NCBI RefSeq assembly: GCF_000177675.1
Contig: NZ_ADGX01000094.1
Span: 1 to 32,652 of the forward strand
DNA from: Parafrankia sp. EUN1f
GTDB taxonomy: Bacteria > Actinomycetota > Actinomycetes > Frankiales > Frankiaceae
Direction of reading: 5' to 3'
DNA length: 32,652 bases
Part shown: positions 1,499-18,219 of the stretch, piece after piece
How the letters are laid out: every line of letters starts with the position of its first letter
Position numbering within the stretch: position 1 is the stretch's first letter
The notes under the pieces: generated by a model
The model's input: only the letters and a program-made list of their open reading frames with translations
The model's database searches: none
What the model was told of the DNA's origin: nothing
Position numbers and translations under genes: made by a program

Positions 1499-1654
1499 CA
1501 CGGGCCGCTGTCGATCTCTGCTGTCGCGATCGGTGATGAGATCCACGCCTGTCAACCGCTGAGGTAGTCCCCGGTGGCCCATTCGCTCCATGCCAGGACT
1601 GGCCGCGCTTTCACCGTCTGACGACACCGACCAACCATTCCACATACGGCCTTG

Positions 1655-3017: not shown

Positions 3018-3336
3018 CAGAACTCCCCCGCTGTCCGGTGGCGCAACTATACCTTTGTACACAGTCGTGGTCGACAGCTCCGCACTCTCCAGCCCTGAAG
3101 GTCCTGCTGGCGGGATGGGTCAGGCTCGCCCGGTGCCGCCCACGGCCCGAAAACAGCGAGCAGGAACAACCGCGACGTACACGGACGTCCAGAGCCGCCA
3201 GGCCCGCGACCGGCACCGGCGGACGCCCCACCGACGTAAACAGTGCGAACCGAGAAGACATTCGAAAGTTGGGGGTCGGTCAGAGCCCCGCAGTCGATTA
3301 CGCGGCGCGGGCTCTGGGCTTTGTCTCAACCTGGCG

Positions 3337-3707: not shown

Positions 3708-3838
3708 GAGCTGCGGCACAGGAGAACGTCCGGGTCGTGATCGCCCCGCTTCACCGGGAGCTGGCGGCAGGCACTCTCGCCTCTGTTCTGCACCAGGCGG
3801 GCATCGAGGCGGAGGAGCTTAGGGCGTTGCTCACCTGA
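3708..3838 (+). pseudogene. HicA toxin 3' fragment
   Basis: The frame reads NVRVVIAPLHRELAAGTLAS and then VLHQAGIEAEELRALLT before the stop, closely matching residues 31-75 of the intact HicA at 5312-5539. The N-terminal half, with the dsRBD-like first helix and the catalytic His region, is absent, and one A is missing in a CAAGGAG/CAGGAG comparison at the left boundary. The junction with the DUF433 cassette at about 3707 has lost any att repeat, so two cargos have been fused by deletion. Confidence 0.75.
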
Positions 3839-3870
3839 GCCCAGCGCGATCCCGGGTGCAACCTGGAAGG

Positions 3871-3972
3871 GTGACTCTGTCGAAGCGTGCGTCCTGGTTC
3901 CTGATCGCGGTGGGTGTGTGGACGTGGGCCATCTGGCCGAATTTGTAGAACATTCACTTATGACCTAGGTAC
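3871..3972 (+). repeat. att repeat 1: 5' fragment of SCO4848-type gene plus phage arm
   Basis: The repeat starts at the GTG of a truncated copy of the membrane-protein gene (VTLSKRASWFLIAVGVWTWA). It runs to codon 24 and then switches at the TT core into an arm that contributes a TAG stop (3946-3948) and ends ATGACCTAGGTAC at 3972. Its sequence up to the core matches the intact gene at 10305 closely. Structurally it is an attL (B half plus P' half). The conserved sequence starts about 25 bp upstream of the GTG. Confidence 0.85.
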
Positions 3973-4668
3973 CGGGTCGAGTGACTGGCGCGGAGCCGGT
4001 ACGTCGGGAGCGGGTCTGCCGGCGAGAAGGCCGGGGACGCGACTCTGGTTCATGATCCAGTCGTGCACGTCGGTATCCAGGTAGTCGGCCACCCTTAGCA
4101 GGTCGGCGTGCATCTGCTGCAGTGGTCGGTTGTGGATCGGTTCGTGGTGGGCGATGCGGCTCCGGAGGTTGACGAGCCGGTTGACTGGTTCGTAGACCGT
4201 CGCGCGGCGGGCGGGGCGAAGCCGGGGGAAGGCGTGGCGGAGCGCGGGCGTCCAGAGAGTCGCCTCGTAGCGGCGGGACAGCAGATATCGCCAGAAGCCG
4301 AAATTCAGCTCGGCGACGATCCGGCCAGGAACCACGGTCTTGTTGTTGCGTCGGATCCTGGCTCTGGCATCCGCTATGTCCTGACGGGCGCGGGCTTCGA
4401 GAGTCCTGGTAGGGGCGTCCCACCACTCTCCGGGGCGATGCTGGCGGGCGTGCCACGCCGTGAGCTGGTCATGAAGCGTGTTACGCAGCACGACTTCGAG
4501 TAGCCCCAGAACCTCGTAGAAGGCGGCACTGACCGAACTGTTCCACCCGTAGAGCATGATCGCGCGGGTGACGTCGCCGTCGCATGCCTGCTCGTAGGGG
4601 CTGAGGCGTTCGGCGCTCAGCCTCCGCCGGAGCCGAGAGGCGTCGGGTGAAGGCAGGGGGTTGGACAT
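3958..4668 (-). CDS. Abi-family (Abi_2/AbiD-F-like) HEPN protein
   Basis: The 236-aa protein is abortive-infection Abi_2-like. Near the N-terminus it has LRRRLSAERLSPYEQAC, then a helical middle (SVSAAFYEVLGLLEVVLRNT, typical of the family). Near residues 165-180 is a HEPN-type RX4H motif in NLRSRIAHHEPIHNRP, the probable RNase site. Members cause growth arrest on phage infection. It is 60-70 percent alike by eye to the protein at 5659-6351. The last codons (VPRS and stop) are supplied by the att arm, so the cargo abuts the recombination site. ATG 4668 is the first start and follows a conserved leader with a hairpin (see 4702-4746). Function is inferred from family. Confidence 0.75.
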   Translation of the reverse strand: MSNPLPSPDASRLRRRLSAERLSPYEQACDGDVTRAIMLYGWNSSVSAAFYEVLGLLEVVLRNTLHDQLTAWHARQHRPGEWWDAPTRTLEARARQDIADARARIRRNNKTVVPGRIVAELNFGFWRYLLSRRYEATLWTPALRHAFPRLRPARRATVYEPVNRLVNLRSRIAHHEPIHNRPLQQMHADLLRVADYLDTDVHDWIMNQSRVPGLLAGRPAPDVPAPRQSLDPVPRS

Positions 4669-4701
4669 CGGTGCACCGGATCTTCTACAGTGGCCGTGTA
4701 G

Positions 4702-4746
4702 ACCCCGGATGGCCTCTACCGCTCAGGCGGCATGCCCCGGGGTTTT
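4702..4746 (+). terminator. Hairpin with T-run upstream of abi 1 (possible small-RNA terminator)
   Basis: ACCCCGG (4702-4708) pairs with CCGGGGT (4737-4743), with an inner CCGC/GCGG helix, followed by TTTT on the plus strand. The same arrangement with identical flanks occurs upstream of the second abi gene. On the plus strand it would end a short RNA divergent from abi; it also shields the gene fragment that follows. Confidence 0.5.
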
Positions 4747-4761
4747 GTCTGTCCGCCCACC

Positions 4762-4937
4762 CTATGGCGATCAACGTGGCTGAAATCGCGCGCCCACAGA
4801 GAGGCCACGGCGTCTGTGGGTGCGAGGCTGGTGGGGTGACGCTGTCGAAGCGTGCGCCCTGGTTCCTGATAGCGGTGGGTGTGTGGACGTGGGCCATCTG
4901 GCCGAATTTGTAGAGCATTCACTTATGACCTAGGTAC
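4762..4937 (+). repeat. att repeat 2 with extended upstream homology
   Basis: GTG at 4836, truncated frame to TAG 4911-4913 (25 aa with Ala-Pro in place of Ala-Ser), then the arm to TAGGTAC at 4937. Homology with repeats 4 and 5 extends about 75 bp further upstream, starting at TATGGCGATCAACGTGGCTG, and contains the dyad GCGCCCACAG/CTGTGGGTGC. That segment is presumably the native promoter region of the target gene. Confidence 0.85.
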
Positions 4938-5093
4938 TCCCCGGGGCCGGGAGCGGTCTTGTGTCTCTCGCGTGTACTCGGGTCGTTAAAGATCGTTTCT
5001 GCTCGTATGGTCGACAGAGGTCTGGTCGACCATGTCGAGGAGGTGGCGGTGAGCGCTTCGCCAGGAGTGGCAGGGACGGCTAGGCTGATCTCC

Positions 5094-5315
5094 ATGGAGC
5101 GAGCGGCGCGGCTGACGGCTGTCGTCACGCACGAGGGCGACTGGTATGTGGCGCGGGCCCTGGAGGTCGAGGTGACCAGCCAGGGAGCCAGCGTCGAGGA
5201 GTCGCTGGCGAACCTTCGTGAGGCGCTGGAGCTGTACTTCGAGGACCAGCCGTTCCCCGCCACCGCCGCGGACGGTCCCATCGTCGCTCCGCTGGACATC
5301 CGCCTGTCGGCGTGA
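5094..5315 (+). CDS. hicB: HicB-type antitoxin
   Basis: The 73-aa protein begins MERAARLTAVVTHEGDWYVA and continues RALEVEVTSQGASVEESLAN, the partial RNase-H-like fold typical of HicB. HicB neutralises HicA and usually represses the operon. The frame is open upstream to 4959, but family length and the fold start support ATG 5094. It overlaps hicA by four bases (GTGA), so the pair is translationally coupled. It sits between att repeats 2 and 3, alone with hicA. Confidence 0.85.
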   Translation: MERAARLTAVVTHEGDWYVARALEVEVTSQGASVEESLANLREALELYFEDQPFPATAADGPIVAPLDIRLSA

Positions 5316-5539
5316 CACCCGCGCTGCCTCGGGTCTCCGGGGCGAAGGTGGTGAAGGCTCTGGGGCGTGCCGGCTTCGAGGAGGTCGCCACGCGTGGCTC
5401 GCACTGCAAGCTGCGGCACAAGGAGAACGCCCGGGTCGTGATCGTCCCGCTTCACCGGGAGTTGGCGACAGGCACCCTCGCCTCTGTTCTGCGCCAGGCG
5501 GGCATCGAGGCGGAGGAGCTTAGGACGTTGCTCACCTGA
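5312..5539 (+). CDS. hicA: HicA-type mRNA interferase toxin
   Basis: The 75-aa protein reads LPRVSGAKVVKALGRAGFEE, then VATRGSHCKLRHKENARVVI, VPLHRELATGTLASVLRQAG and IEAEELRTLLT. This is the complete YcfA/HicA dsRBD-like fold; SHCKLRH carries the expected catalytic His region. HicA degrades mRNA independently of ribosomes. The start is the GTG overlapping the hicB stop. A truncated homologue lies at 3708-3838. Confidence 0.88.
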   Translation: MTPALPRVSGAKVVKALGRAGFEEVATRGSHCKLRHKENARVVIVPLHRELATGTLASVLRQAGIEAEELRTLLT

Positions 5540-5571
5540 GCTGCGCGTGGTTCCGGGTGCAAGCTGGACGA

Positions 5572-5673
5572 GTGACTCTGTCGAAGCGTGCGTCCTGGTT
5601 CCTGATCGCGGTAGGTGTGTGGACGTGGGCGATCTGGCCGAATTTGTAGAACATTCACTTATGACCTAGGTAC
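5572..5673 (+). repeat. att repeat 3
   Basis: GTG 5572, truncated 25-aa frame with TAG at 5647-5649, arm ending TAGGTAC at 5673. Upstream homology is short (about 25 bp), as in repeat 1, which also follows a HicA end. Confidence 0.85.
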
Positions 5674-6351
5674 TGCGGGCGGCTGCGGCGGTCGTGACAG
5701 CAGGAGAGTTGGCACTCGGCTTCGGCTGCGGATCCACTCTTCGACATCGCCGTCGAGGTGTCCGGCGACACGCAGAAGATCATGGTGAAGGGTCGCAAGC
5801 GGTCGGTTGTGGATCGGTTCGTGGTGCGCGACGCGATTGCGGAGCCGAACGAGGCTGTCGACGGGGTTGTAGATCCGGACCCGTTGCGCCGGGCGAAGGT
5901 TCGGAAACGCGCGGCGGAGTGCGGGAGTCCACAGGGTCGCCTCGTATCGCCTGGTCAGGAGGTAGCGCCAGAAGCCGAACGTCAGCTCGGCGATCATTCG
6001 GCCGGGCGTGATGTCCTTCCGGTCGCGGCGCAACCTGGCGTAGGCGTCGGCGACGTCCTGCCTTCGATGAGCTTCGAGGATGCCGGCCCGATCGTCGTAC
6101 CACTGGCCGGCCCTTCGCTGGCGCTGATGCCAGAGGGTGAGCTGGTCGTGCAGGGCGTTGCGCAGGACGATCTCGAAGAGCCCGAGGACTTCGTGGAACG
6201 CGGCGCTGATGCTGCAGTTCCACTCGTACAGGGCCACTGCCTGCTCAAGGTCATGATCGCAGGCCCGTTCGTACGGTTCGAGGCGCTCGGCGCTCAGTCT
6301 GCGCCGGATCTGGACCGCGCAGGCGTGCGACGGGGTCAGGGCGTTCGACAT
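5659..6351 (-). CDS. Abi-family (Abi_2-like) HEPN protein, second copy
   Basis: The 230-aa protein shares the order of motifs with the first Abi: IRRRLSAERLEPYERACDHD near the start, CSISAAFHEVLGLFEIVLRN in the middle, ELTFGFWRYLLTRRYEATLW, and the RX4H motif in VRLRNRVAHHEPIHNRPL. It also ends in VPRS with its TAA inside the att arm. It has diverged enough from the first copy to suggest arrival with a related but different element rather than a recent local duplication. The predicted activity is RNase-like growth arrest, not shown by sequence alone. Confidence 0.75.
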   Translation of the reverse strand: MSNALTPSHACAVQIRRRLSAERLEPYERACDHDLEQAVALYEWNCSISAAFHEVLGLFEIVLRNALHDQLTLWHQRQRRAGQWYDDRAGILEAHRRQDVADAYARLRRDRKDITPGRMIAELTFGFWRYLLTRRYEATLWTPALRRAFPNLRPAQRVRIYNPVDSLVRLRNRVAHHEPIHNRPLATLHHDLLRVAGHLDGDVEEWIRSRSRVPTLLLSRPPQPPAVPRS

Positions 6352-6384
6352 CGGGCTACCGGTCTTCTACACTGTGCAGTGGAC

Positions 6385-6447
6385 ACCCCGGATGGCCTCT
6401 ACCGCTGTACGGCTTCACTGCTGAGCGGCAAGCCCCCGGGGTTTTTT
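6385..6447 (+). terminator. Hairpin with T6 upstream of abi 2
   Basis: ACCCCGG (6385-6391) pairs with CCGGGGT (6436-6442) and runs into six T. An inner CCGCT/AGCGG helix encloses a longer loop than in the first copy. CCCCGGATGGCCTCTACCGC is identical in both leaders, while the loop differs. This pattern fits a conserved structured RNA ending in an intrinsic terminator. Confidence 0.55.
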
Positions 6448-6462
6448 CTGTCCGCCCACTTT

Positions 6463-6633
6463 ACGGCGATCAACGTGTCCGAACTCGCGCCCCCACACGG
6501 AGACCACGGTTCGCGGCCGGTGCGAGGCTGGTGGGGTGACTCTGTCGAAGCGTGCGTCCTGGTTCCTGATCGCGGTAGGTGGACGTGGGCGATCTGGCCG
6601 AATTTGTAGAACATTCACTTATGACCCAGGTAC
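6463..6633 (+). repeat. att repeat 4 (frameshifted copy)
   Basis: GTG 6536. A four-base deletion in the run GTAGGTGTGTGG shifts the fragment's frame, so this copy no longer ends at the usual TAG. The arm carries CCCAGG in place of CCTAGG and ends at 6633. Extended upstream homology begins at about 6463. Confidence 0.8.
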
Positions 6634-6770
6634 TGGGCCTGGGTCACGCCGTGCCGGTGGTGGTCAGCGGCTGCGAGGGCGCCAGATGGCGCGTGACCCG
6701 CGTGAGGAGCGTCCCGCTGACGGGCTTGCGCATCGTTTCCGGCAGCTGTGCCGCCTCGATTGACGATTAA

Positions 6771-7184
6771 CTAGGGCAGGAGGGCGAGCGTTCGATTGGC
6801 TTTGACGACAGTGAAGTGCCGACGGTCGACGGTGGCGACCTCATCGACGCCGAGTCGTTCCGCGCAGGCGATCACTGATGCGTCCACGGTGCCCAAGGGC
6901 AGGTTGCGGTACTGGTTGACCAGGTCCGCGTTCCGCAGCCAGTCGGTCGGGTGGACGGTCTCGATATCGAACGCACCGGAGGCCAAGTCCGCGAGGAAAC
7001 GCAGCTCGGCCTGCGTGCCGAGCCGGGTATCCAGTAGGTAGACCACCTCGGTGATCACAAGGGTGGGGACGATCAGCGGTCCAGGATGGGTTTCCAGCAG
7101 GTCCGCGCAGGCCTCGTGATGTTGGTCGTCGGCGTCGACGTACGCGTAGAGCGGACCGGCGTCGACTACGAGGGCTATGACGCC
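6771..7184 (-). CDS. vapC: PIN-domain toxin, VapC-like
   Basis: The frame reads VIALVVDAGPLYAYVDADDQ and then VPTLVITEVVYLLDTRLGTQ. The C-terminal part contains LPLGTVDASVIACAERLGVD and ATVDRRHFTVVKA. The acidic residues of a PIN nuclease (D in VVDAG, E in ITEV, D in TVDAS, D in VDRRHF) are all present, so the domain looks complete. No ATG, GTG or TTG precedes the domain in frame near its start. The codons at the expected position are GTC ATA GCC, overlapping the antitoxin TAG, so the start shown is approximate. It may be a silenced toxin or use AUA through coupling. Confidence 0.75.
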   Translation of the reverse strand, partial: GVIALVVDAGPLYAYVDADDQHHEACADLLETHPGPLIVPTLVITEVVYLLDTRLGTQAELRFLADLASGAFDIETVHPTDWLRNADLVNQYRNLPLGTVDASVIACAERLGVDEVATVDRRHFTVVKANRTLALLP

Positions 7185-7435
7185 ACCTCGTTGGCGAGGA
7201 TCTCCTCCATGCGTTCGGAGATGTCCTGCCGGCCGCTGCGGCCTGCGCCCCGGGCGCCGAGTACGCGCCGTCCGTTGGTCGTCTCGCCCCGTTCGAGGAG
7301 TTCGGCGAGACCCGCCGGCACGATCGCGGCCAACCGCTGGCCCTTGTCCGTCAGGTAGACGACCTGACCAGATGCGGCAGCCTCTCGGACGACCTCGGCG
7401 AGTTGATCGTCGGGGGGGAGCGGCATCTCCGCCAT
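7175..7435 (-). CDS. vapB: VapB/Phd-type antitoxin
   Basis: The 86-aa product starts MAEMPLPPDDQLAEVVREAA and continues ASGQVVYLTDKGQRLAAIVP, a Phd/YefM-like DNA-binding fold. The C-terminal tail is RQDISERMEEILANEVAS. It should cap the PIN toxin encoded directly after it, and the stop overlaps the toxin start region. Alternative starts are 7426 and 7474; no strong ribosome site separates them. Confidence 0.75.
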   Translation of the reverse strand: MAEMPLPPDDQLAEVVREAAASGQVVYLTDKGQRLAAIVPAGLAELLERGETTNGRRVLGARGAGRSGRQDISERMEEILANEVAS

Positions 7436-7511
7436 GGCACATCGTAACTTTGGTTCACCCGCCTCACCCTCCATCGATCTTCTTGCCCGTCGCGACTCCG
7501 GCCGCTATCCC

Positions 7512-7690
7512 ACTCTATGGCGATCAACGTGGCTGAAATCGCGCGCCCACAGAGAGGCCACGGCGCCCGTGGGTGCGAGGCTGGTGGAGTGACTCTGTCG
7601 AAGCGTGCGTCCTGGTTCCTGATCGCGGTGGGTGTATGGACGTGGGCGATCTGGCCGAATTTGTAGAACATTCACTTATGACCTAGGTAC
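7512..7690 (+). repeat. att repeat 5 with extended upstream homology
   Basis: GTG 7589, 25-aa frame, TAG at 7664-7666, arm ending at 7690. The upstream block is nearly identical to that of repeat 2 for about 75 bp. Confidence 0.85.
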
Positions 7691-7722
7691 TGCGCCGCTA
7701 CGCCGAAGGTGGTCGGCGGAGA

Positions 7723-8094
7723 TCAGGGGATCAGCGGCAGTTTCCGGACCCGGACAAGACGGTCGGTGAGGACGATCATGCTGCCGTCCTTCAGCGCTTC
7801 TGCCAGCTGGTCGAGGTTCGCGAGGAGAAGCCGAAGCTGTTCGACGGGGCGGCGACCACCTTCCCGGCGGAAGAGGATCACAGAAGGGCTGTCGAGTTCG
7901 CTCCGGGCGAGGATGCCGCCGAAGTCGGTGTCGGCTGAGATCAGAACCCTTCGCTCGTCTCGCGCGAAGCCGAGGACGGTGGTGTCGTCGGCCGCGCCGA
8001 GTTCGACGTCTCGAACGTGGAGAACGTCGTGCCCGGCCTCGCGCAGACCGGTCGCGAGAGTGTTCGACAGGTTGTTGTCGAGCAGGAAGCGCAC
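7723..8094 (-). CDS. DUF5615 PIN-like toxin
   Basis: The 123-aa protein starts MRFLLDNNLSNTLATGLREA, then GHDVLHVRDVELGAADDTTV and DERRVLISADTDFGGILARS. These are the DUF5615 signatures (LLDxN near the N-terminus and a DTDFG motif), a circularly related PIN-like nuclease fold found as toxins with DUF433 antitoxins. It lies five bases after the antitoxin stop in one operon. The C-terminus (VRVRKLPLIP) is intact, unlike the stub at 3386. Confidence 0.85.
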   Translation of the reverse strand: MRFLLDNNLSNTLATGLREAGHDVLHVRDVELGAADDTTVLGFARDERRVLISADTDFGGILARSELDSPSVILFRREGGRRPVEQLRLLLANLDQLAEALKDGSMIVLTDRLVRVRKLPLIP

Positions 8095-8099
8095 GTTGG

Positions 8100-8330
8100 T
8101 CAGGCTGGGATGATCAGCGGAAGCTGCTGCTCGCGGACGGCTTCGGCTGCGAAGCGGAGCGCCTCGCGGATGTCGTCCCCATCGAGGTCGGGCAGCTCAG
8201 TAGTGACCTCGGTGGCGGACATGCCGTCCGCGATCATCCCGACGACCGTTGCTACCGGGATGCGCAACCCACGGATGCAGGGAACCCCGCCCATCTGCGC
8301 CGGGTTCACCGTGATGCGGGTGAAGTGCAC
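8100..8330 (-). CDS. DUF433 antitoxin
   Basis: The GTG at 8330 is preceded by AGGAGG (8342-8337) at good distance, giving 76 aa: VHFTRITVNPAQMGGVPCIR, GLRIPVATVVGMIADGMSAT, EVTTELPDLDGDDIREALRF. A MAEEG-like winged-helix region (GMIADGMSATEV) is typical of DUF433. A longer frame to 8357 lacks a ribosome site. It is the first gene of the pair with DUF5615. Confidence 0.85.
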   Translation of the reverse strand: MHFTRITVNPAQMGGVPCIRGLRIPVATVVGMIADGMSATEVTTELPDLDGDDIREALRFAAEAVREQQLPLIIPA

Positions 8331-8514
8331 TGGCCACCTCCTCTCGTACTTCAGCATACGGTGATCATGGTGGTCCTGAGGTGGTCGCCGTGAGACAGGC
8401 CGCGAGGTCGCGGCAGCGTGGTGCTCGTGGGTTGTGCGGCAGCCATGGCGCTGGCGTCGCGTGCGTGTCCAGCTTCACGGCCCGCGGCAGTTCTCGATCG
8501 TCCCGTCCGTGCGT

Positions 8515-8636
8515 ACGGATGCGAGGCTGGAGAGGTGACTCTGTCGAAGCGTGCGTCCTGGTTCCTGATCGCGGTGGGTGTGTGGACCTGGGCGATCTGG
8601 CCGAATTTGTAGAACATTCACTTATGACCTAGGTAC
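8515..8636 (+). repeat. att repeat 6
   Basis: GTG 8535, 25-aa frame, TAG 8610-8612, arm ending at 8636. Upstream similarity is limited to about 20 bp (GCGAGGCTGG). Between the DUF433 start and this repeat (8331-8514), and between this repeat and the Fic gene (8637-8819), no gene is seen. Confidence 0.85.
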
Positions 8637-8819
8637 TCCAGCCTGCTGTGTCACGGTCAGTAGCGGATGGGTGTCGTCGTGGTCGCTTTCTGTGTTTGGG
8701 TGGAGGTGGGCCCAGGACCTGTCGTCCGATGGGTCGGCGGGATGGCGTTGGGACGGGCTCTGCAAGCGGACTTTGAGTCGCGCGGGAAGATCTCAAGTTT
8801 TTGCCCGTAGACTTGGATT

Positions 8820-10016
8820 GTGGATCGGGATCGGTTCGAGCGCAGCCCCACTGGACATCTCGTCAAGATTGCTGGAACGGACGGGCGGACGGGCGTCGCG
8901 TACGAACACGTGGCCTTCCAGCCGGACCCGCTGGGGGGCGCCGAGCCGGCACTGGCGGGAGGGACGTGGCGAAACGTAGCCCGCGCGGGGCGAGCTCTCG
9001 GTCGTCTCGACCAGGCCGGCCGACAGATCCCTGAACCTGCCTTGCTTCTGCAGCCCACGCTTCGGACGGAGGCGCAGAGCACGTCTGCGTTGGAGGGGAC
9101 CTTCGCTCCGCTGGAGGACGTGCTCGCGGCTGAGGTCACAGAGCCGACCTCGCAGAGCGAGGAGGTCCGTGAGGTCCTTAACTACGTCCGGGCGGCCGAG
9201 GCGGCATTCGCGTGGATAGGCGACGGCCGCCCACTCACGGTCGCCGCGCTCTGCCAGATGCATCGAGATCTCGTGCGTGGAACTCCTGCGGATACCCGTG
9301 ATGCGGGGAGGATCCGCTCGATTCAGGTTGCGATCGGAAGCCGCGGTGGTGCGATCGACACCGCTCGCTTCGTCCCGCCGCCGCCCGGACTGGAATTGGA
9401 CGCCGCCGTCCGTGATCTGCTGGACTGGGTCAATTTTGATTCGAAGGTCATTGATCCGGTCGTGGCTGCCGCGATGGCGCACTACCAGTTCGAAACCCTT
9501 CATCCATTCAATGACGGAAATGGAAGAATCGGGCGGCTTCTCGTGGTCCTCGATCTTTGTTGGAAGGAGGTTATCTCGGAGCCGCTGCTGGCTGTGTCGC
9601 CTTGGTTGGAGGTGCGTCGGGAAGAGTATCAGGACCGTTTGAGGGAAGTTAGCGCAGTGGGGGACTGGGACGGCTGGATTTCTTTCTTTTCCGAAGGTCT
9701 GGCCGAGTCCTGTGAGCAAACTATTCGGACGGTCGACGACCTTCTCGGTCTCCAGGCCGAATATGTGCGACGCCTCAAGGTGGCGGGCCTGACCGGTGGA
9801 CTGGTTCGCGATGTCATCGACCGGCTGATCGGGAGTCCATTTGTCACGGTGCGTTCGGTCAGTGAAGATACCGGCAGGACTCTGCAGGCGGCCAGCAATG
9901 CCGTCGCCAGGCTTGTAGATCTAGAAATTCTGCGGGAACGTACCGGGCGAAGCTACGGTCGTGTCTTTGAGGCAGTGGAGGTCACTTCTGTGCTACGGGG
10001 CCGGTCGGGCCGCTGA
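8820..10016 (+). CDS. Fic-domain protein (AMPylase-type) with inhibitory helix and C-terminal winged helix
   Basis: The 398-aa protein has the canonical Fic loop HPFNDGNGRIGR (about residues 228-239), with catalytic His and the Asn-Gly-Asn anion hole. It is preceded by the flap region. A Fic inhibitory-helix motif, SALEGT (S-x-x-x-E-G), lies near residue 89, so the protein carries its own antitoxin-like glutamate (class II Fic). The C-terminal part (TVRSVSEDTGRTLQAASNAV) looks like the winged HTH of Fic/DOC regulators. The GTG start lies about eight bases after TAGACT with no clear ribosome site, so the mRNA may be leaderless. It is the sole cargo between att repeats 6 and 7. Confidence 0.88.
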   Translation: MDRDRFERSPTGHLVKIAGTDGRTGVAYEHVAFQPDPLGGAEPALAGGTWRNVARAGRALGRLDQAGRQIPEPALLLQPTLRTEAQSTSALEGTFAPLEDVLAAEVTEPTSQSEEVREVLNYVRAAEAAFAWIGDGRPLTVAALCQMHRDLVRGTPADTRDAGRIRSIQVAIGSRGGAIDTARFVPPPPGLELDAAVRDLLDWVNFDSKVIDPVVAAAMAHYQFETLHPFNDGNGRIGRLLVVLDLCWKEVISEPLLAVSPWLEVRREEYQDRLREVSAVGDWDGWISFFSEGLAESCEQTIRTVDDLLGLQAEYVRRLKVAGLTGGLVRDVIDRLIGSPFVTVRSVSEDTGRTLQAASNAVARLVDLEILRERTGRSYGRVFEAVEVTSVLRGRSGR

Positions 10017-10099
10017 GGCTCCGTCGGTCGGGCGGTGGCTCCGCAGACGTGTTCGGTCTCACCGAACAGCATGATTTATGATCATGCTGGTCGTCGGGG

Positions 10100-10220
10100 T
10101 GGCTGCGAAGCTGGACCGGTGACCCTGTCGAAGCGCGCGTCCTGGTTCCTGATCGCGGTGGGCGTCTGGACGTGGGCCATCTGGCCGAATTTGTAGAACA
10201 TTCACATATGACCTAGGTAC
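10100..10220 (+). repeat. att repeat 7 (left end of the current element)
   Basis: GTG 10119, 25-aa frame, TAG 10194-10196, arm with CACATATGACCTAGG ending at 10220. It is the closest repeat to the intact gene, only 84 bp away, and the natural partner of the right-end arm at 20679. Confidence 0.85.
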
Positions 10221-10304
10221 TGGTTCTGCCGGGGGTGTCTTGCGTCACTCTGTGTGATGGGTCTCGGTGGGCTCGTCCGCTCGGGCGGGTGCGAAGCTGG
10301 TGGG

Positions 10305-10583
10305 GTGACCCTTTCGAAGCGTGCGTCCTGGTTCTTGATCGCAGTCGGCGTCTGGACGTGGGCCATCTGGCCAAATTTCCTTCGCAATATTTGGAAGGAT
10401 GATCGTTCCTGGGACCACGGTCCGACCGGCTTCTTCACGGTCCACCTGGTCCTGACGGTCGTCTCGCTGGTGGTCGGCTCCGTCGTCGGCTGGCTCGGCA
10501 TCCGCGGGGCTCGCGTGAACCGTCCCGGTGCCCCCGGCGATGATGCTGTCTCGTCTGACCGGTTGATCAGCTCTGGTCGCTGA
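10305..10583 (+). CDS. SCO4848-type small membrane protein, intact copy
   Basis: The 92-aa protein starts VTLSKRASWFLIAVGVWTWA, then IWPNFLRNIWKDDRSWDHGP and GFFTVHLVLTVVSLVVGSVV. Two membrane helices (about 8-25 and 45-65) are separated by a WKDDRSW loop. This arrangement matches the SCO4848 family of actinobacterial membrane proteins; function is unknown. It is the only complete copy in the window. Around the crossover point its codons differ from the reconstructed attB at 7 of about 20 positions, all but one amino acid silent (Lys to Arg). Downstream sequence to about 10870 still resembles the flank after 20907, so the copy came with native flank. Confidence 0.85.
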   Translation: MTLSKRASWFLIAVGVWTWAIWPNFLRNIWKDDRSWDHGPTGFFTVHLVLTVVSLVVGSVVGWLGIRGARVNRPGAPGDDAVSSDRLISSGR

Positions 10584-10885
10584 TGCCTCGGGTATACGGC
10601 GGTCTTGAAAACTACCCGGGGCGCCGATCTGCCCGGCGCCGTGTGGTCCTCCTGGCCTCGGTGAACCCGGCCTGACCTGGGCGGATGCTTCGCCGTGATC
10701 GTCGAGGTGTGGTCCCGGTGAGTCTCACGGGATCCCACTGTTGACCATGGTTCACGGGCGCATGGCGGGCAGAACCGGGCCGGATCCGGAGGCGTCAGCG
10801 GCCGTCTCCGCCCACGGGTCGGTGGTCGTCGTGCCTCCCATTTCTTTGTCCTGTTCCCCGGACAGTGCCTTCGCCTGTGCGGGAC

Positions 10886-10954
10886 GCCGGCCGGGTCAAG
10901 GATGGCGCAGCCAGTCCGTAGGACCGCCCGAAGGGCGCCCTTGACCCGGCCGGC
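10886..10954. repeat. 16-bp perfect inverted repeat, candidate origin or transfer site
   Basis: GCCGGCCGGGTCAAGG at 10886-10901 and its exact complement at 10939-10954 enclose 37 bases. A further partial pairing (ATGGCGC/GCGCCC) extends it inward. It lies just inside the left end of the AICE, after the native-like flank. Such a structure could be a double-strand origin, a clt locus or a strong terminator; the sequence alone does not decide. Confidence 0.5.
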
Positions 10955-12022
10955 GGCCCGTCAGATCATCTGGCGCCCAGCCGGGGAATGGGCACTCAAC
11001 GTGATTTGTTAGCGTAGATCGGCTACGCTGGGTATCCGAGTATCCGAGGTGCTGCCGGTCTCGCACCGGCGGAGCACCTGACCCATATCAGATGTTCGAT
11101 CGTCCGCAGACGTCCGTGGGTGTCCCCCGGTGCAGGCCACGGGCTCGATCACGTCCGTCGGCGCCCACGGACGTCCGTCCCCGTTGCAGTACAACTGCGG
11201 TACGGAACGCTCCCGAGCAGTGGTCACGGACCGCATTCGCGGAAGCCGTTTCGCAGGGTGGCCACAGAAAGTCTCGCCCCTGCCAAGGTGGACGGGTCGG
11301 GCTGTCCGCTGCAACTGCCTCAGTCTCCCGGCCGTCCGCTGGCGTGCCCCCTGCTTGCTCTTCTGCCCACCGGCGTGCGCGACGGCGGGATAGTGATAGA
11401 TCATCGCGCCATGGCTGGATCAATCAGGCTGAAACCGCCGGTGTTCATCTCCGCATGTACGTGCTTCGCCTCCGCGGCGACGGTCCGCACCTCGGATCCA
11501 CGAACCCTCATACCCTCCCTTGCACAAAGTCGGCCTGACTCGTCCGCTGGCATCCGCGTCCGTCCGCCGGCTTGGCTACACAGTTGGCTACCTAGCTTCC
11601 CGGTGATCTGGCGCAGGTAGCCGACCTGCGGATTATGAGAGAACGGCGCTCCATCCACAGACGTCCTCGGATGTCCCCCAGGTCGCCCCACCCTGGCCTT
11701 GAGCGTCGGGCCGTGTCCGCCGGAGTGATGTCCACCCGCTTAAGTACAGCGATAGGACATTGCCGCTGGGCTCCACGAGGGCTGGAAAGTAGGCGTATCG
11801 GCCACAACCTGACCCGACTCAAACAGGTAGGCTCCCTCCACAACAGGTCGGCGAGCGAGGACAACGCCCGACAAGGAATATCCCTGCGATATCGGCCATT
11901 GAGATGGCAAATAGCAAGAACTTAGCGCCAAGGGTCCACAACTACAGGCCGCCCGACTGTTGCGGATTCAAAGTAGCGACCCGTTGCAGTGCAGAGTTGA
12001 CGAGACGTGACCACTGTGTGAG

Positions 12023-12050
12023 TATCGCTCGCGTTGGATCTCGAGCGATA
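12023..12050 (+). promoter_or_regulatory. Leader hairpin/operator before the precursor peptide
   Basis: TATCGCTCG (12023-12031) and CGAGCGATA (12042-12050) form a perfect 9-bp inverted repeat five bases upstream of the GAAAGG ribosome site of the peptide gene. It could be an operator or an mRNA stem controlling access to the ribosome site. Confidence 0.45.
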
Positions 12051-12068
12051 TCCAGAAAGGATTGTGGG

Positions 12069-12236
12069 ATGACAAGTCCGACAGGGAATATCAATCTCAG
12101 AATTGCTGAACTGGTCAAGGATGCACGGCCGGAGGAAATTGTCGAAGTCCTGACGGACAGCAGCGAGAGAAGCCTGCTGAGTGCGGCCGGAGGAAATAAC
12201 AACAACCATAACAACAACAACACCAAGCCCAAGTAA
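12069..12236 (+). CDS. Small precursor peptide with Asn-rich core (RiPP candidate)
   Basis: The 55-aa peptide starts at ATG 12069 with GAAAGG at 12055-12060. The leader MTSPTGNINLRIAELVKDAR plus PEEIVEVLTDSSERSLLSAA is acidic and helical, as in many RiPP leaders. A Gly-Gly then precedes the tail NNNNHNNNNTKPK: eight Asn around one His, then Thr-Lys-Pro-Lys. The gene ends 93 bases before the start of a B12-binding radical SAM protein on the same strand. The Gly-Gly suggests the cleavage site, and the 13-residue tail would be the modified core. I do not recognise a described family with this core. The precursor role is inferred from size, bipartite composition and neighbour. Confidence 0.7.
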   Translation: MTSPTGNINLRIAELVKDARPEEIVEVLTDSSERSLLSAAGGNNNNHNNNNTKPK

Positions 12237-12328
12237 ATACTCTCCGCCCCAAATTGTTCATTCCGGCGGCCATCCATCCTATTCGTTCAAACCGTCGGTC
12301 CGACCAGGAATCACGGGTAGACGTGTGC

Positions 12329-14371
12329 ATGGATGCAGATAGGGAAAGTAGCATTCTAGATATCCTCCTCCTATTCCCGCCGCAGTGGAGTCCCTTCCAG
12401 CCGTCCCTGTCCTTGCCATCGCTATCAGCTTGGCTGAAGCGAGCTGGGTTCAGTGTCAGTTCTGTCGATTTGAACGTCGAATTCTTCGAATGGCTACTTT
12501 CCGATCACTGTGCCGAGCTACTGATCCGTCAGGTCCACGAGAGGGCGGACCTGACGGATCAGGTCCGGGTCTCGTTGCAGAGGCTGTTCGAGAACGTAGC
12601 AGCCATCCGGAGCGATCTACACCGGATGAAGAATAGTCAACCACCGATTTACCCGAGAGACAAAGCTAGCTACTTCGACCGCCACTACATTGGCGTGAGC
12701 TCATTGACGACCTATCTAGCTGCGATCTCCCAGGTCAGCCAGGACTTTTCCGTCTCACCATACGAGTTCCATCTAGAATGTGACAACCTATCTTCGGCCG
12801 CGTTGGAAAGGATGGTTCGGCGCCCGCCCCAGCTGCTAGCCGAGTTCCTCCGCGAGAGCGTGGTTAGGCACGTGCGTACACATCCAGCTCGATCGATCGG
12901 AATTTCCTGTATCGGCCAAGAACAGTTGTACTTTACCCTGCTGGCGGGATCAATAATAAAAGAACATACCGATGTACCTGTGCTCGTCGGCGGAACGATA
13001 CTGGCGCGGATATTCGAGCGCGGATCGTTGAAGAACGACTGGTTCGGGAGTTTTTTCGACATAATCGTTCGCAATGAGGGCGAAAAGCCGGCAGAGGAGA
13101 TCCTGCGGAACCTGCTCTCAGGTTCCCCCGCTGTTGACAATGTCCCGGGGATTGTCTATCTGCATGACGGAGCGATCGAGTCTCGCGAACCGTGTGCGCC
13201 GCTCACGCCACGCGAGATCCCGGTCCCCGACTTTGACGACATGCCGCTGACTCAATACCTTTCGGCGCATACGACCCTCCCTCTGCTCGCCTCCCGTGGC
13301 TGCTATTGGGGAAAATGCGAGTTCTGCCATCACGGTATGGTCTACGGTGAGAAGTATGCCGGCTATGGTGCCGGGGCGGTACTGGACTCTCTGCATGAAC
13401 TTGAAGCAAGATACGGCGTTCGATACTTCGCCTTCAATGACGAAGCTCTCCCGCCTAAGCTGTTGCGCGATTTGGGAGAGATGGCACCTTCCCATGAAGT
13501 CACTGGATGGAATCTTACAGGACTGATAAAGTTTGAGAACTTTTTTCGGTCCGAGGATTTTGTAAATCTGCATAGGATTGGCTTCAGGTCGCTGTATGTC
13601 GGACTTGAGTCCGCCTCAGAACGGGTACTCCGGCTGATGCGGAAAAATACCCACAGGGAGGTCATAGTAAGTAATTTGTCGGCTGCCGCAGCAGCCGGTA
13701 TCTGGATGCACTGCTTTCTTTTCTTCGGGTTCCCCGGAGAGGAAGAGGCGGACGCGCAGGAGACATTTGATTTCATCGTGGGCAACCGTGAGATTGTTAG
13801 ATCATTCGGCGTCGGGACATTCTCGCTGGAGCACAACGCTCCAATCTTTCGCCACCCTGAGCGTTTTGGCTTGACCCTACACAGGTCGCCTCGCGTGGAC
13901 GAGGATCTTGATGTCTACTACGCGTACGACGTGCGGGATGGAATATCGGCGGGGCGTGCCGGAGAGTGGGCAGATATGTTGCACGGTGCAGCCCTCGATA
14001 TCCCTGATTACCAAGCTGCTGGTTGGATTCCACGCGAACTTCTGCTGGGCATCCTCGCTGCGATTAGCCCAACGGAGCTTATCGAACAGGGCGCCCGGAC
14101 ATGGGAGTTGGGCGGACTTCCGCGCGATGCCGCGATGTCGCATCTGGTCATGTTGATTGATCACCCCGATGAAGCGGAACAGAAAATCCTGATAAACCGC
14201 GTCAGCGGGTCCGTCTACTTCGTCCGCGGCGGTTCTCGTGTCCTCCTTGAACATTGCATTGAGGGGGACGTCACTTTCGGCGACCTCAAGACGCTGGCGC
14301 CGTCCATCTTCGATCGAATATCAGCCCGGCCTGTGAAGCGGTCCGCCTCTGCGGAGCTTCGGTCTGGGTGA
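12329..14371 (+). CDS. B12-binding radical SAM protein, likely RiPP maturase
   Basis: The start is ATG 12329 or GTG 12323, about 680 aa; the frame is open from 12254 but family starts near SSILDILLLFPPQWSPFQPS. The N-terminus is a cobalamin-binding-like Rossmann domain (LSLPSLSAWLKRAGFSVSSV; later SIGISCIGQEQLYFTLLAGS and VPVLVGGTI, about residues 190-230). The radical SAM cluster loop is SRGCYWGKCEFCHH, with spacing CX4CX2C. A TIM-barrel follows (GFRSLYVGLESASERVLRLM, FLFFGFPGEEEADAQE). There is no SPASM domain. Relatives act on ribosomal peptides, often as methyltransferases or epimerases; here the substrate should be the Asn-rich peptide. A C-terminal segment (ILINRVSGSVYFVRGGSRVL) may help leader binding. 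Its G+C is clearly lower than that of its neighbours, suggesting acquisition. Confidence 0.85.
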   Translation: MDADRESSILDILLLFPPQWSPFQPSLSLPSLSAWLKRAGFSVSSVDLNVEFFEWLLSDHCAELLIRQVHERADLTDQVRVSLQRLFENVAAIRSDLHRMKNSQPPIYPRDKASYFDRHYIGVSSLTTYLAAISQVSQDFSVSPYEFHLECDNLSSAALERMVRRPPQLLAEFLRESVVRHVRTHPARSIGISCIGQEQLYFTLLAGSIIKEHTDVPVLVGGTILARIFERGSLKNDWFGSFFDIIVRNEGEKPAEEILRNLLSGSPAVDNVPGIVYLHDGAIESREPCAPLTPREIPVPDFDDMPLTQYLSAHTTLPLLASRGCYWGKCEFCHHGMVYGEKYAGYGAGAVLDSLHELEARYGVRYFAFNDEALPPKLLRDLGEMAPSHEVTGWNLTGLIKFENFFRSEDFVNLHRIGFRSLYVGLESASERVLRLMRKNTHREVIVSNLSAAAAAGIWMHCFLFFGFPGEEEADAQETFDFIVGNREIVRSFGVGTFSLEHNAPIFRHPERFGLTLHRSPRVDEDLDVYYAYDVRDGISAGRAGEWADMLHGAALDIPDYQAAGWIPRELLLGILAAISPTELIEQGARTWELGGLPRDAAMSHLVMLIDHPDEAEQKILINRVSGSVYFVRGGSRVLLEHCIEGDVTFGDLKTLAPSIFDRISARPVKRSASAELRSG

Positions 14372-14569: not shown

Positions 14570-15277
14570 TCAAAGCATTAGATCAAGATGGAACTTGAAC
14601 GCACTACTGAGCCCGGCGAGTAGATGACCGCCCTTGATCGAGCTGGCGAGAGATGGTCTGCCAATCACCCCGGTGGATGTGTAGGTGGGCATTCCGACCG
14701 AGAGTAGGTGAGGGCGCTCGTTGGCTATGTGGTCGCCGCTCTTGTAAGAGTCTCTGACCTGCTCGGGTGTGGTGTGTAGCAGAACGGAGACCTCAAGTTC
14801 TCCGGCGTGCATGTCCTCCGAGTGGTCGGTCTCCATGCCGGCGGCTTCGCGGGCGCGGGTCCAGTCGGTTTTGCCGGGGAACAGGATCATCCGCGGCCCA
14901 CCGATGTTCGCTTCCTGGACGATGTTGGAGAGCACGTAGTTGCCGCCGTGCCCGTTCACGATGACTAGCCGGTCTACCCCGGAAGCGCTTAGGGATGCGG
15001 TGATGTCATCGATCAGGGCGATGAGGGTGCGGGCGCTGATGCTGACCGTGCCGGGGTAGGAGGCGTGTTCGTGGGAGCAGGAGAAGGTGATCGGGGGGAG
15101 CAGGAACAGGCCGTAGTCGTCGGCGATGCGGCGCGCGATGGCGGAGGCGATCAGGGTATCCGTCGTCAACGGCAGGAAGTCGCCGTGCTGTTCGAAGCTT
15201 CCGACCGGAAGCACGGCGACCCGGGGGTTGAGCGCCCGGATGTCGGTGGTGGTGGCCGTGGTGGCGAGAGAGTCCAC
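14570..15277 (-). CDS. Creatininase-family amidohydrolase
   Basis: The 235-aa protein carries the creatininase motifs in order: VAVLPVGSFEQHGDFLPLTT with metal ligands E, H and D; SCSHEHASYPGTVSIS; the VNGHGGN turn; and MHAGELEVSVLL with His and Glu. These dinuclear-metal enzymes hydrolyse amide bonds in small molecules. One subgroup (MftE) cuts the mycofactocin precursor peptide. It follows the regulator gene by nine bases in one operon and converges on the radical SAM gene. A role as peptide-processing enzyme for the nearby RiPP is possible but unproven; a stand-alone creatininase is the alternative. Confidence 0.8.
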   Translation of the reverse strand: MDSLATTATTTDIRALNPRVAVLPVGSFEQHGDFLPLTTDTLIASAIARRIADDYGLFLLPPITFSCSHEHASYPGTVSISARTLIALIDDITASLSASGVDRLVIVNGHGGNYVLSNIVQEANIGGPRMILFPGKTDWTRAREAAGMETDHSEDMHAGELEVSVLLHTTPEQVRDSYKSGDHIANERPHLLSVGMPTYTSTGVIGRPSLASSIKGGHLLAGLSSAFKFHLDLML

Positions 15278-15286
15278 GTGAGCAGC

Positions 15287-16637
15287 CTACGGCCGACCGA
15301 TGCGGGTGGCCGGTGGCAAGGTCGTGAGCGCTGCGGCCAGCGTGCGGACCTCGTCAGTCTTCCGCCAGCGACCGAGCCAGCCGGGCAGGCGGTGCAGCTC
15401 GTCGGCGGCTCGGGCGGAAGCCGTGTCAGCCACGATCGGGATTGCCTCCATCGCCACGGCGCAGGCGCGGGCGGGTTCGCGTTGGGCTGCGTAGGCGTTG
15501 GCAAGGCGGGCGAGATGCAGGCCGCGGTCACGCTCGAACTCGGCGGGCCAGTCGGTCAGGCAGTCCTCGTAGACCGTGATCGCCTCCCGCGTCTGGCCGA
15601 GGATGAGCCAGCAGTCCGCGGCCTCCAGCTCGACGTACGCCGGAGTGCAGTAACCGGTCAGGGTGCGTTCGGTCTCACCGTGGTCGTCGGTGATGGCGGC
15701 GTGGTGGCGGGCCTGGTCGAGCGCGCGGGCACAGGCGGCGGCGTCTCCGGCAAGGGCGTGGCCACGGGCGATCTGCCGGTAGGCCAGGGCTCGAGCGCGG
15801 GGGCTGATGGTGTCGGAGCGGCGTAGTGCGGCCTCGGCGAGTCCGAGTGTTGCTCGGCGGTCCCGGCGGGCGGCGGCATGGTGGCTCTTGCGGGTCAGGA
15901 CGTAAGAGATCATCAGGGAGTCGTCGGCCTCGGTCGCCCACTCCAGGGCTCGGTCCGACCAGTGGGCGGCGGCGCGGTCGTCGCCTGCGTCCTGGTGGAG
16001 CCAGCCGGCGAACTCGGCGAACGACGATCCGACCTGGAGAACCCGGGTCCGGGTGGGGCCGTCCGCCACGGCCAGAAGGCGGCCGATGAAGTCGAGCTGG
16101 ACTGCGGCCGTGGCCATGAGATGGCGTGGGCCCATCATGTTGTCCAGCCGGGCGTACTGGGCGAGCGTGCCGTGAAGCGCGTCCACGGCTGCGGGGTTGA
16201 CCCGGCGCGGCGGCTCGACGGGACTCGTCGGCGCTCCGATCGGCCCGTCAGGCCGGCTTCCTTCCGCCCCGCCTTCGCCAGAGACGCCGAGTAGCCGTCG
16301 GGCGTCCGCTGGCATGTCGAGACCGTCCGCGATGCGGGCGAAGACCTGCTATCGAGACCGTCCGCGATGCGGGCGAAGACCTGCTATCGAGACCGTCCGC
16401 GATGCGGGCGAAGACCTGCTGTTCCTCGACGCGCCGTTTGCGTCGCACGATCTTGCTGATGTCGGGCTGGGCGATGCCGACCCGTTGGCCGATCGTGGTC
16501 TGGCTGGCGTTCGCGTGCTTGCTGTAGAGCAGAAAGAACGTTGCCATGTCCCGGGCGCGCAGTGCTTCGCGTACGTCGGCCCGGGTCCAGAAGGCGGCGG
16601 GCGTCTCCTGGGCGCGGGTCGGCCTGTTCTGGCTCAT
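15287..16637 (-). pseudogene. XRE-family regulator with TPR-like C-terminus, split by 35-bp triplication
   Basis: ATG 16637 has GGAGG (16646-16642) upstream. The N-terminal part (MSQNRPTRAQETPAAFWTRA, then ASQTTIGQRVGIAQPDISKI) is an XRE helix-turn-helix. It reads to VFARIADGL, then enters a 35-bp sequence present three times (16317-16420). One copy would continue in frame into MPADARRLLGVSGEGG and a 340-residue helical TPR-like repeat region (ARLDNMMGPRHLMATAAVQL through REPARACAVAMEAIPIVADT). Two extra copies add 70 bases and put the two parts out of frame. An intact product would be about 450 aa, normal for this regulator type in actinomycetes. It probably regulated the creatininase gene downstream. 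Confidence 0.8.
16317..16420. repeat. Three tandem 35-bp repeats within the regulator gene
   Basis: Units at 16317-16351, 16352-16386 and 16387-16421 begin TCGAGACCGTCCGCGATGCG. The first two are identical and the third differs only at its last base. Since 35 is not a multiple of three, one or four copies keep the regulator in frame while two or three break it. Confidence 0.95.
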
Positions 16638-16833: not shown

Positions 16834-18219
16834 CTAACCGGCGAGATCCTCCGGGGTGTCGACTCCGGCAATGAGGGCCTGGCCCGGGGTGTAGCCGCTG
16901 CCGGCGTACCGCCACCGGCCGACCCTCGCGGTCTGCTCGTCGCCTGGTGCTGGGAGCCCTTGAAGGACGCGGGCGTTCTCGGCGCGCTCTGCGGACCGTG
17001 CTCCGCGCAGTGCGCCCAGGGTCGTGGAGTACCTCCGGCTTCGGGTGCCGAAGTGTCCGCGGAACCCAAGCATGTGCGCCCAACGGCGAAGATTCAGCTC
17101 GGAATGCTCCGGCATCCCGCCGAGCCTCCAACAGGTTTGGATCATCGCGCGGGCGTGGTCGGTGACGTCCAGGTGCTCGATGTCGGCAGCGGCTCGGATG
17201 CGGTGGTGCACTGTCCCGCTTACCTCGGCGCCCTTTGTCGCGTACTTCGCGATGTAGCCGGCGACCTTCTCGTCTGCCGTCCGGTCGTCGGATGCGGCTG
17301 TCAGCACGGCACGGGTGTCGAGCTGGTCCCCCCATCGCAGTGTCCGGCTGGGTTCGGCCTCGTCGGGTCCGCCCGGCACGGACAGCCGGACTTCCTCTGC
17401 GGCCTGGTGGACGGCCTCGCCGAGCACGGCCAGGGTCGCCCATTCGGGAGGCCGCTCCGATCCGCCTTCCGGCCCGTCGAGCCGGATGAGGGCGTGCAGG
17501 TGGACCAGTCCACGGGCCTGGAACTCGGCGACCTTCGCGAACGACACGCGGAGTTCCTGAGAGAGGCGGGTGCGGCTGATGCCCGCGTGGTCGGCCAGCC
17601 GGCGGCGCAGGTAGATCGTGAACCGTTGCCAGAGCAGGCCGACGTGGGCGTTCCACAGCACGGCGCCGTCATAGTCGAAGCAGCCGGCGCACAGGGGCTG
17701 TCCGATCCGCGGGTCGCCGGGCTCGTGCCGCTCGTCGCACCACTGCGGGCGGCCGTGGGCGCAGGCCGGCCGCTGCCTCCGGGGCCGGCAGGGGAGTAGC
17801 CGGCCGTTCCGTTCCCGGCGGGCGTGCACCGGGCCGAAGGATGGCGCGGTGAGCGTGACGAACAGGCGGGGATGCAGGCGGACGGATTCGGGTACGCCCT
17901 TCCCGCCGATGAGACCGGCGCGGATCAGGTGGAAGGTGTCGGCCTGGTAGATCCGGGAGCATGCGGGGCAGACGGCGGCCCGCCGGTTCCCGCACGCGGT
18001 GAGCAGGTAGCCGGTGGGCTCGTCCGTCGTCGAATACCGGTCGATGACCTCGCCGGTTCCCGTGTGCACGGTGAGCTCGTCGCCGATGAGGCGCACCGGA
18101 CGGGCGCAGCCGTGCACGCCTTTGGCGATCGCGGTCCAGCGGGCGAAGTCCGGGCCGTTCGCCTGGGCCAGGACCTCCCGCATGGCAGGGGTGAGGGTGG
18201 GGAAGCCATCGCCGGTCAT
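16834..18219 (-). CDS. RepSA-type replication initiator of an AICE
   Basis: The 461-aa protein has a zinc-finger-like cluster (CGNRRAAVCPACSRIYQADT, about residues 76-95) and further Cys/His pairs (CAHGRPQWC, CAGCFDYD). It has the HUH-type metal motif in GLVHLHALIRLDG (about 235-247) and, further on, KVAGYIAKYATKG with the candidate catalytic Tyr. These features match the RepSA/pSAM2-type rolling-circle initiators of actinomycete integrative and conjugative elements. Length is normal and the frame intact. It overlaps the upstream small gene (ATGA), so the two are coupled. No TraB/FtsK-like transfer gene accompanies it. Confidence 0.88.
   Translation of the reverse strand: MTGDGFPTLTPAMREVLAQANGPDFARWTAIAKGVHGCARPVRLIGDELTVHTGTGEVIDRYSTTDEPTGYLLTACGNRRAAVCPACSRIYQADTFHLIRAGLIGGKGVPESVRLHPRLFVTLTAPSFGPVHARRERNGRLLPCRPRRQRPACAHGRPQWCDERHEPGDPRIGQPLCAGCFDYDGAVLWNAHVGLLWQRFTIYLRRRLADHAGISRTRLSQELRVSFAKVAEFQARGLVHLHALIRLDGPEGGSERPPEWATLAVLGEAVHQAAEEVRLSVPGGPDEAEPSRTLRWGDQLDTRAVLTAASDDRTADEKVAGYIAKYATKGAEVSGTVHHRIRAAADIEHLDVTDHARAMIQTCWRLGGMPEHSELNLRRWAHMLGFRGHFGTRSRRYSTTLGALRGARSAERAENARVLQGLPAPGDEQTARVGRWRYAGSGYTPGQALIAGVDTPEDLAG

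Follow-up and report, generated by a model that had tools for sequence, protein, structure and literature searches.

A candidate RiPP-type gene pair of Parafrankia sp. EUN1f encoding an asparagine-rich peptide and a cobalamin-type radical SAM enzyme, with amide-rich counterparts in two other lineages

The stretch of Parafrankia sp. EUN1f DNA analysed here, contig NZ_ADGX01000094.1 at 32,652 nt (the window), carries two neighbouring genes on the forward strand, encoding a 55-aa peptide with an asparagine-rich C-terminal tract (P0001) and a 680-aa cobalamin-type radical S-adenosylmethionine (SAM) enzyme (P0002). The enzymes closest to P0002 among the loci compared were repeatedly accompanied by a small open reading frame (ORF) containing a run of the amide residues Asn or Gln, and this peptide was conserved in the class of Myxococcus. 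P0001 may therefore be a precursor of the ribosomally synthesized and post-translationally modified peptide (RiPP) type on whose amide tract P0002 acts as an iterative C-methylase, a proposal in which our confidence is evenly balanced.

P0001 (nt 12069–12236, stop codon included) starts with an ATG at nt 12069, preceded at a distance of 7 nt by a ribosome-binding-site-like sequence, AGAAAGGA (nt 12054–12061, forward strand), and its full translation is MTSPTGNINLRIAELVKDARPEEIVEVLTDSSERSLLSAAGGNNNNHNNNNTKPK. The frame is open further upstream, the ORF list giving nt 11904–12236 (110 aa), so that the choice of start rests on this Shine-Dalgarno-like site. Residues 1–42 (nt 12069–12194) constitute a putative leader, net acidic with 7 acidic and 4 basic residues and ending with SLLSAAGG, where the presumed boundary lies. 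The putative core, residues 43–55 (nt 12195–12233), reads NNNNHNNNNTKPK and contains 8 Asn and 1 His; its tract was compared with the Gln and Asn/Gln tracts of the relatives described below. Translation and residue counts thus bear out the initial annotation, made from the letters of the window, which had described a 55-aa peptide with an acidic leader, Gly-Gly, and a 13-residue tail with eight Asn around one His. At the nucleotide level the tract is a near-perfect AAC repeat, and TKPK are the only residues C-terminal to it. The highest mean hydropathy over 15 residues was 0.36, and no family match was found for P0001 in NCBIfam (E up to 1), Pfam (E up to 0.1) or PHROGs.

P0002 (nt 12329–14371, stop codon included) starts 92 nt past the stop of P0001 on the same strand; its mechanical ORF opens at a TTG at nt 12254, and the start at nt 12329 is a choice. 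The radical SAM domain, residues 323–483 (nt 13295–13777), matched Pfam PF04055 Radical_SAM with 36.6 bits (cut-off 29.5). It includes the iron-sulfur motif CYWGKCEFC (nt 13301–13327; Cys325, Cys330 and Cys333), which has the arrangement CX4CX2C and differs from the classical CX3CX2C; the former spacing was observed in 110 of 122 aligned rows and the latter in 6, the remaining 6 having no motif (duplicates included). A cobalamin-binding region was assigned to residues 174–258 (nt 12848–13102), where Pfam PF02310 scored 27.5 bits, below its cut-off of 32.1, and the fold supports the assignment. The structure predicted from 25 sequences (mean pLDDT 77.2), which was also searched with Foldseek, was nearest to OxsB (Z 24.1), TsrM (21.6), AprD4 (21.4), MgmA (20.9) and CysS (20.6), although a fold shared by a model does not by itself establish the reaction of P0002. 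The Radical_SAM score and the model alignment place P0002 among the Class B (cobalamin-dependent) radical SAM enzymes. No SPASM match was present among the Pfam and NCBIfam families listed for it, which sets it apart from the SPASM/twitch class and agrees with the earlier description as a cobalamin-type radical SAM protein without a SPASM domain. The best NCBIfam model was TIGR03975 (rSAM_ocin_1), a RiPP maturation radical SAM C-methyltransferase, with 121.6 bits where the cut-off is 281.85; PhpK, ApyD and further models came next, scoring far under their cut-offs. The C-terminal small domain, residues 595–680 (nt 14111–14368), was tentatively assigned as possibly leader-binding, similar to a RiPP recognition element (RRE) or PqqD. 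The last ~85 residues were modelled at low confidence, and the order of strands and helices in this domain of the P0002 and Myxococcus dinghuensis models is, by eye and at that low confidence, compatible with PqqD/RRE; Pfam PqqD was recognised in the Dehalococcoidia homologue introduced below (39 bits), and 4 of 25 family members matched it at E up to 1.

Relatives of P0002 were collected by scanning a collection of 84,980 genomes, the query being an alignment of three sequences, and the best 80 loci were taken. Among the matches listed, the top one was from M. dinghuensis (L020; 39% identity over the best segment) and the second from a Dehalococcoidia metagenome-assembled genome (L021; 31%), and relatives closer to P0002 than those listed may exist. 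Twelve of 147 genomes of the M. dinghuensis class matched at 1e-60, comprising 11 full genes, that of M. dinghuensis included, and one remnant (L112, genome G469) in which only the C-terminal part of the enzyme, query residues 520–677, persists; this remnant suggests gene loss. Four of the eleven full enzymes shared 36–38% identity with P0002 in the alignment. In bit scores against P0002 among the loci compared, the eleven ranked highest (387 to 408), followed by the Dehalococcoidia enzyme (307) and all others (at most 284), and the best match of the M. dinghuensis enzyme outside its own class was, among the same loci, P0002 (400), ahead of the Dehalococcoidia enzyme (352). P0002 grouped with the Myxococcus-class enzymes in a careful tree of 31 rows that held five of the eleven (support 100/99) and in a quick tree of 60 rows that held all of them (support 99). 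Extension to 195 genomes of the Myxococcus phylum yielded 18 matches at 1e-60, namely the earlier 12 and six at 218–271 bits (L138, L139, L141-L144), whereas 396 sampled genomes of the window's phylum gave the window itself and one distant match (L145); no amide-rich small ORF was observed in these seven extra loci. In viral contigs, P0002 alone gave no match and the alignment gave 13 distant loci. Plasmids yielded five matches to P0002 (24.6–27.7% identity) and none to P0001.

All eleven Myxococcus-class full enzyme genes are preceded by a conserved ORF of 86–92 aa, which lies 139–150 nt ahead of the assumed enzyme start, is itself preceded by GGAGGT and contains an uninterrupted run of 10–12 Gln. 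Several of these frames are open further upstream, and the ORF start was therefore taken from the GGAGGT site. In nine genomes the Gln tract mixes CAG and CAA codons, while the other two use only CAG. It occupies a central position, and the segment C-terminal to it is conserved too. For 8 of 55 pairs of these peptides dN/dS was computed, the point estimates being 0.29–0.65, which is consistent with purifying selection. Two of the peptides were measured and showed a basic N-terminal stretch followed by a hydrophobic segment (highest mean hydropathy over 15 residues 1.63 and 1.57), which could be a signal peptide. In the Dehalococcoidia locus, the ORF in the equivalent position is preceded by AGGAGG, ends with MLAAANNINGGQNNILQPEKKEG and contains NNINGGQNN.

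The association was quantified in 116 homologous loci, 110 of which have at least 350 bp of upstream sequence, by taking the 600 bp ahead of the enzyme gene and recording the densest Asn+Gln count per 12 residues in the small ORFs there. The count was 10–12 in the eleven Myxococcus-class loci, 8 in the window and 7 in the Dehalococcoidia locus. Across 129 sequences (1.34 Mb, 17 duplicate loci removed), 13 of 10,332 ORFs of 30–140 aa reached 7 Asn/Gln in 12, and all 13 are situated directly upstream of P0002 or its nearest homologues, that is, in the window, the eleven Myxococcus-class loci and the Dehalococcoidia locus. A DNA pattern for Gly-Gly-Asn4-His-Asn2 occurred in 1 of 393 sampled genomes of the class, at this locus alone, and both counts point to more than a chance occurrence. 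Since the eleven genomes are closely related, the independent evidence amounts to three lineages. The initial annotation had read the two genes as a RiPP-like precursor and its cobalamin radical SAM enzyme, and this reading gains support from the same two-gene order in another phylum, the conserved Gln-tract peptide and the Asn/Gln-rich peptide of the third lineage. It had also raised the case that homologous genes consistently lack a peptide gene, which holds for the other 103 loci and not for the closest 13 (window included). As to its second case, a frame devoid of conservation, P0001 is a singleton and the Myxococcus-class peptides are conserved.

These 103 loci reached at most 5 Asn+Gln per 12 residues and include the Nitrospinota, Nitrospirota and Planctomycetota homologues, the relatives of the Dehalococcoidia locus (L022, L027, L115-L127) and L004, a homologue from the actinomycete class that is 36% identical over a single segment. 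Their precursor, if any, possibly differs in composition or is encoded elsewhere. L004 itself has a B12 radical SAM gene (nt 1192–3254, reverse strand) and, upstream of it, a 50-aa ORF ending with SMCCNVAF; downstream, visual inspection suggested another coding region of radical SAM type, and the locus is a candidate for a different RiPP cluster.

In the proposed mechanism, the two genes would form a RiPP-type unit in which P0001 is the ribosomally made precursor and P0002 the enzyme dedicated to its modification. P0002 would recognise the leader and load methylcobalamin and a SAM-bound 4Fe-4S cluster held by Cys325, Cys330 and Cys333. A 5'-deoxyadenosyl radical would then take a hydrogen from the amide residues, either at a side-chain carbon or at the alpha carbon, and a methyl group would move from cobalamin to the residue, a step presumably repeated along the Asn tract. 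The same modification could take place on the Gln tract in the Myxococcus-class homologues and on Asn/Gln in the Dehalococcoidia peptide. The resulting poly-amide peptide would carry C-methyl groups, and a protease that may be encoded elsewhere would release it. Among the chemistries named in the initial annotation, C-methylation fits the family matches and the fold of the enzyme, whereas epimerisation and a His-Asn link found no support; His is missing from the tracts of the other lineages.

RiPP pathways that use B12 radical SAM C-methylases are already known, and several systems resemble the pair in part. TIGR03975, the best family of P0002 and of its M. dinghuensis and Dehalococcoidia homologues, combines cobalamin-binding and radical SAM domains, whereas the leader of P0001 was not recognised as belonging to any described RiPP class. 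ApyD (NF050148, aminopyruvatide) is an RRE-containing B12 radical SAM enzyme that carries out sp3 C-methylation of Tyr to beta-methyltyrosine in a RiPP (PMC11117315). It is like P0002 in enzyme type and acts on a ribosomal peptide; P0002, however, scored 70 bits versus a cut-off of 750, and the ApyD cluster has an MNIO, a P450 and a methyltransferase, whereas two genes were seen here. MgmA (TIGR04014), which forms 2-methylglutamine in methyl-coenzyme M reductase (PMC11796369), has a fold similar to that of P0002 and shows that a protein can be C-methylated at a carboxamide residue. It differs in that P0002 scored 48.5 bits versus a cut-off of 360 and in that its substrate is one Gln of a large enzyme, with no small-peptide tract. 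GenD1, the gentamicin B12 radical SAM C-methyltransferase for which CX4CX2C is described (PMC4340712), has an aminoglycoside substrate, and the comparison with P0002 is limited to the common motif.

The polytheonamide/aeronamide proteusins are similar in that their RiPP cores contain several Asn and that their pathway includes the radical SAM C-methylases PoyB and PoyC; their Asn residues, however, are N-methylated by PoyE or AerE, and the eight methylated Asn of polytheonamide are due to the N-methyltransferase PoyE, which is another reaction (PMC11285071). Membership of P0001 in this type was rejected, as the peptide matches no leader family and no further modifying gene was seen beside the pair. 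Proteusins are defined by a nitrile-hydratase-like or Nif11-type leader. In the open-licence literature, partly surveyed by title, no RiPP with a homopolymeric Asn or Gln tract was found. Stretches of Gln and Asn are mainly known for their tendency to aggregate. The association of the closest enzymes with such runs suggests an undescribed family of modified bacterial peptides. We put forward, more hesitantly than the C-methylation of P0001 itself, that they may form an undescribed RiPP class with a homopolymeric side-chain-amide core on which a single dedicated cobalamin radical SAM enzyme carries out iterative C-methylation; the core would be poly-Gln in the class of Myxococcus, mixed in the Dehalococcoidia lineage and poly-Asn in this genome. 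If this is true, a conserved small bacterial gene pair encoding an amide run and a cobalamin radical enzyme would provide a natural means of chemically modifying homopolymeric amide tracts, and the peptide chemistry of B12 radical SAM enzymes would come to include the iterative modification of a single residue type. The substrate lends itself to direct testing and offers few kinds of site.

Several observations weigh against iterative C-methylation of a P0001 tract by P0002. P0001 is a singleton, being present in 1 of 35 genomes of the family, its own, and the Asn tract itself was seen in one genome only. Similarity between the leaders was not significant, the fraction of 2000 shuffles scoring at least as well being 0.53 for P0001 and the Dehalococcoidia peptide, 0.92 for P0001 and the Myxococcus-class peptide and a borderline 0.03 for the Dehalococcoidia and Myxococcus-class peptides; common ancestry of the leaders is thus unsupported, and the precursors may have been separately recruited or their leaders may have diverged beyond recognition. 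The tracts are trinucleotide repeats able to arise by slippage, and the amide count was chosen as a measure after the pattern had been noticed. On the enzyme side, P0002 falls below the TIGR03975 cut-off, as do the M. dinghuensis (106.4 bits) and Dehalococcoidia (123 bits) enzymes, and its branch is long (1.76 in the careful tree and 1.43 in the quick one), both trees carrying a warning to that effect. Pfam did not recognise PqqD/RRE in its C-terminal domain, and a profile comparison for RRE there was not significant (E 0.09 at 0.6% probability). Neither a transporter nor a protease dedicated to the pair was seen next to it, and cleavage at Gly-Gly by a Peptidase_C39 transporter was rejected, since this family, the sole one of its kind sought there, had no match in the draft genome.

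The 103 loci devoid of an amide-rich upstream small ORF also count against the proposal and favour an alternative that we consider improbable, in which P0002 works on its own as a B12 radical SAM methylase, its substrate being a lipid or small molecule, and the adjoining short ORF is unrelated. The homologues in Nitrospinota, Nitrospirota and Planctomycetota may be such methylases, many homologues (Nitrospina type, about 600 aa) are shorter than P0002, and P0002 weakly matched lipid-type models (TIGR04072, 46.6 bits). That score, however, is far under the cut-off of 360, each of the eleven relatives that retain a full enzyme gene has the conserved ORF, with the gene order unchanged and the spacing similar, and such a tract is found nowhere else among the small ORFs of the 1.34 Mb. 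It is far less probable still that the Asn tract is a chance AAC microsatellite ending a spurious ORF in an acquired island, with the radical SAM gene alone functional. The near-perfect repeat, its occurrence in one genome and the weak third-position bias (GC content at third positions 0.64 in P0001 and 0.63 in P0002) would fit such an origin, but the peptide frame has a ribosome-binding-like site at 7 nt, lies on the enzyme's strand 92 nt ahead of it, and has amide tracts at the equivalent position in two further lineages.

It is also rather unlikely, though a little less so than a stand-alone methylase, that the peptides are genuine substrates for another chemistry, such as cross-linking, epimerisation or a cobalamin-radical rearrangement, or are modified outside a tract that serves as a flexible spacer. 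OxsB, the top structural match, is a ring-contracting cobalamin radical SAM enzyme that is not known to act as a methylase, and the diol dehydratase AprD4 is also near. The three top-scoring family models, however, all describe methylases, two of them for RiPP C-methylation (ApyD being one) and the third for P-methylation, with P0002 below the cut-off of each. The central position of the Myxococcus-class tract and the conserved segment after it would suit a site elsewhere in the peptide, whereas a spacer in P0001, with TKPK alone behind it, would join nothing, and a length of 10–12 Gln is kept in all eleven genomes, nine of them with mixed codons.

With regard to its genomic setting, the pair lies within 500-base windows of GC content 0.52–0.58 (nt 11750–14249), compared with 0.58–0.69 on the left (nt 8000–11749), 0.66–0.73 from nt 14750 on, and 0.60–0.63 in between. 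Among the 35 genomes of the family, P0002 had a full match in its own genome and a partial one (31%) in one other, and the only other match at 1e-40 in the 393 class genomes was in G215 (36% over residues 178–518). Because of this low-GC island and the rarity of the genes, the pair looks like a horizontally acquired accessory unit. A promoter/terminator scan gave no more than expected by chance, and RNA structure between the peptide and enzyme genes had inconsistent z-scores: -0.09 in the window, -1.10 in M. dinghuensis, -2.29 in L110, -3.73 in L111, 0.78 in L108 and -2.05 in the Dehalococcoidia locus.

Downstream of the pair, a creatininase-family gene (nt 14570–15277, reverse strand) had the mycofactocin peptidase MftE as its best model (132.5 versus a cut-off of 172) and adjoins a gene for an NsdA-family regulator (nt 15287–16315, reverse strand). 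It was rejected as a maturation peptidase and taken as a neighbour, in view of its score, its convergent orientation, its intermediate GC content (0.60–0.66) and its position beside the regulator. In mycofactocin systems the partners of MftE are MftA and MftC; a system of this type was rejected, since the MftE score is below cut-off and no mycofactocin model was among the matches of P0001 and P0002. A RepSA/pSAM2-type replication initiator gene (nt 16834–18219, reverse strand) is a sign of an integrative mobile element nearby and points to an actinomycete host. Upstream of the pair lie a gene for a Fic-domain protein (Fic_N and Fic; nt 8820–10016, forward strand) and, at nt 7723–8357 on the reverse strand, a DUF433 gene (nt 8100–8357) followed by a 123-aa ORF, an arrangement that we take to resemble a toxin-antitoxin pair. 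A family of dispersed direct repeats, spaced 0.2–1.6 kb apart, was observed at nt 3791–10378: a 117-nt unit is present in 8 copies, seven of which show 61–81% identity to the one taken as reference, and a 62-nt core in 7 copies, with 87–94% identity.

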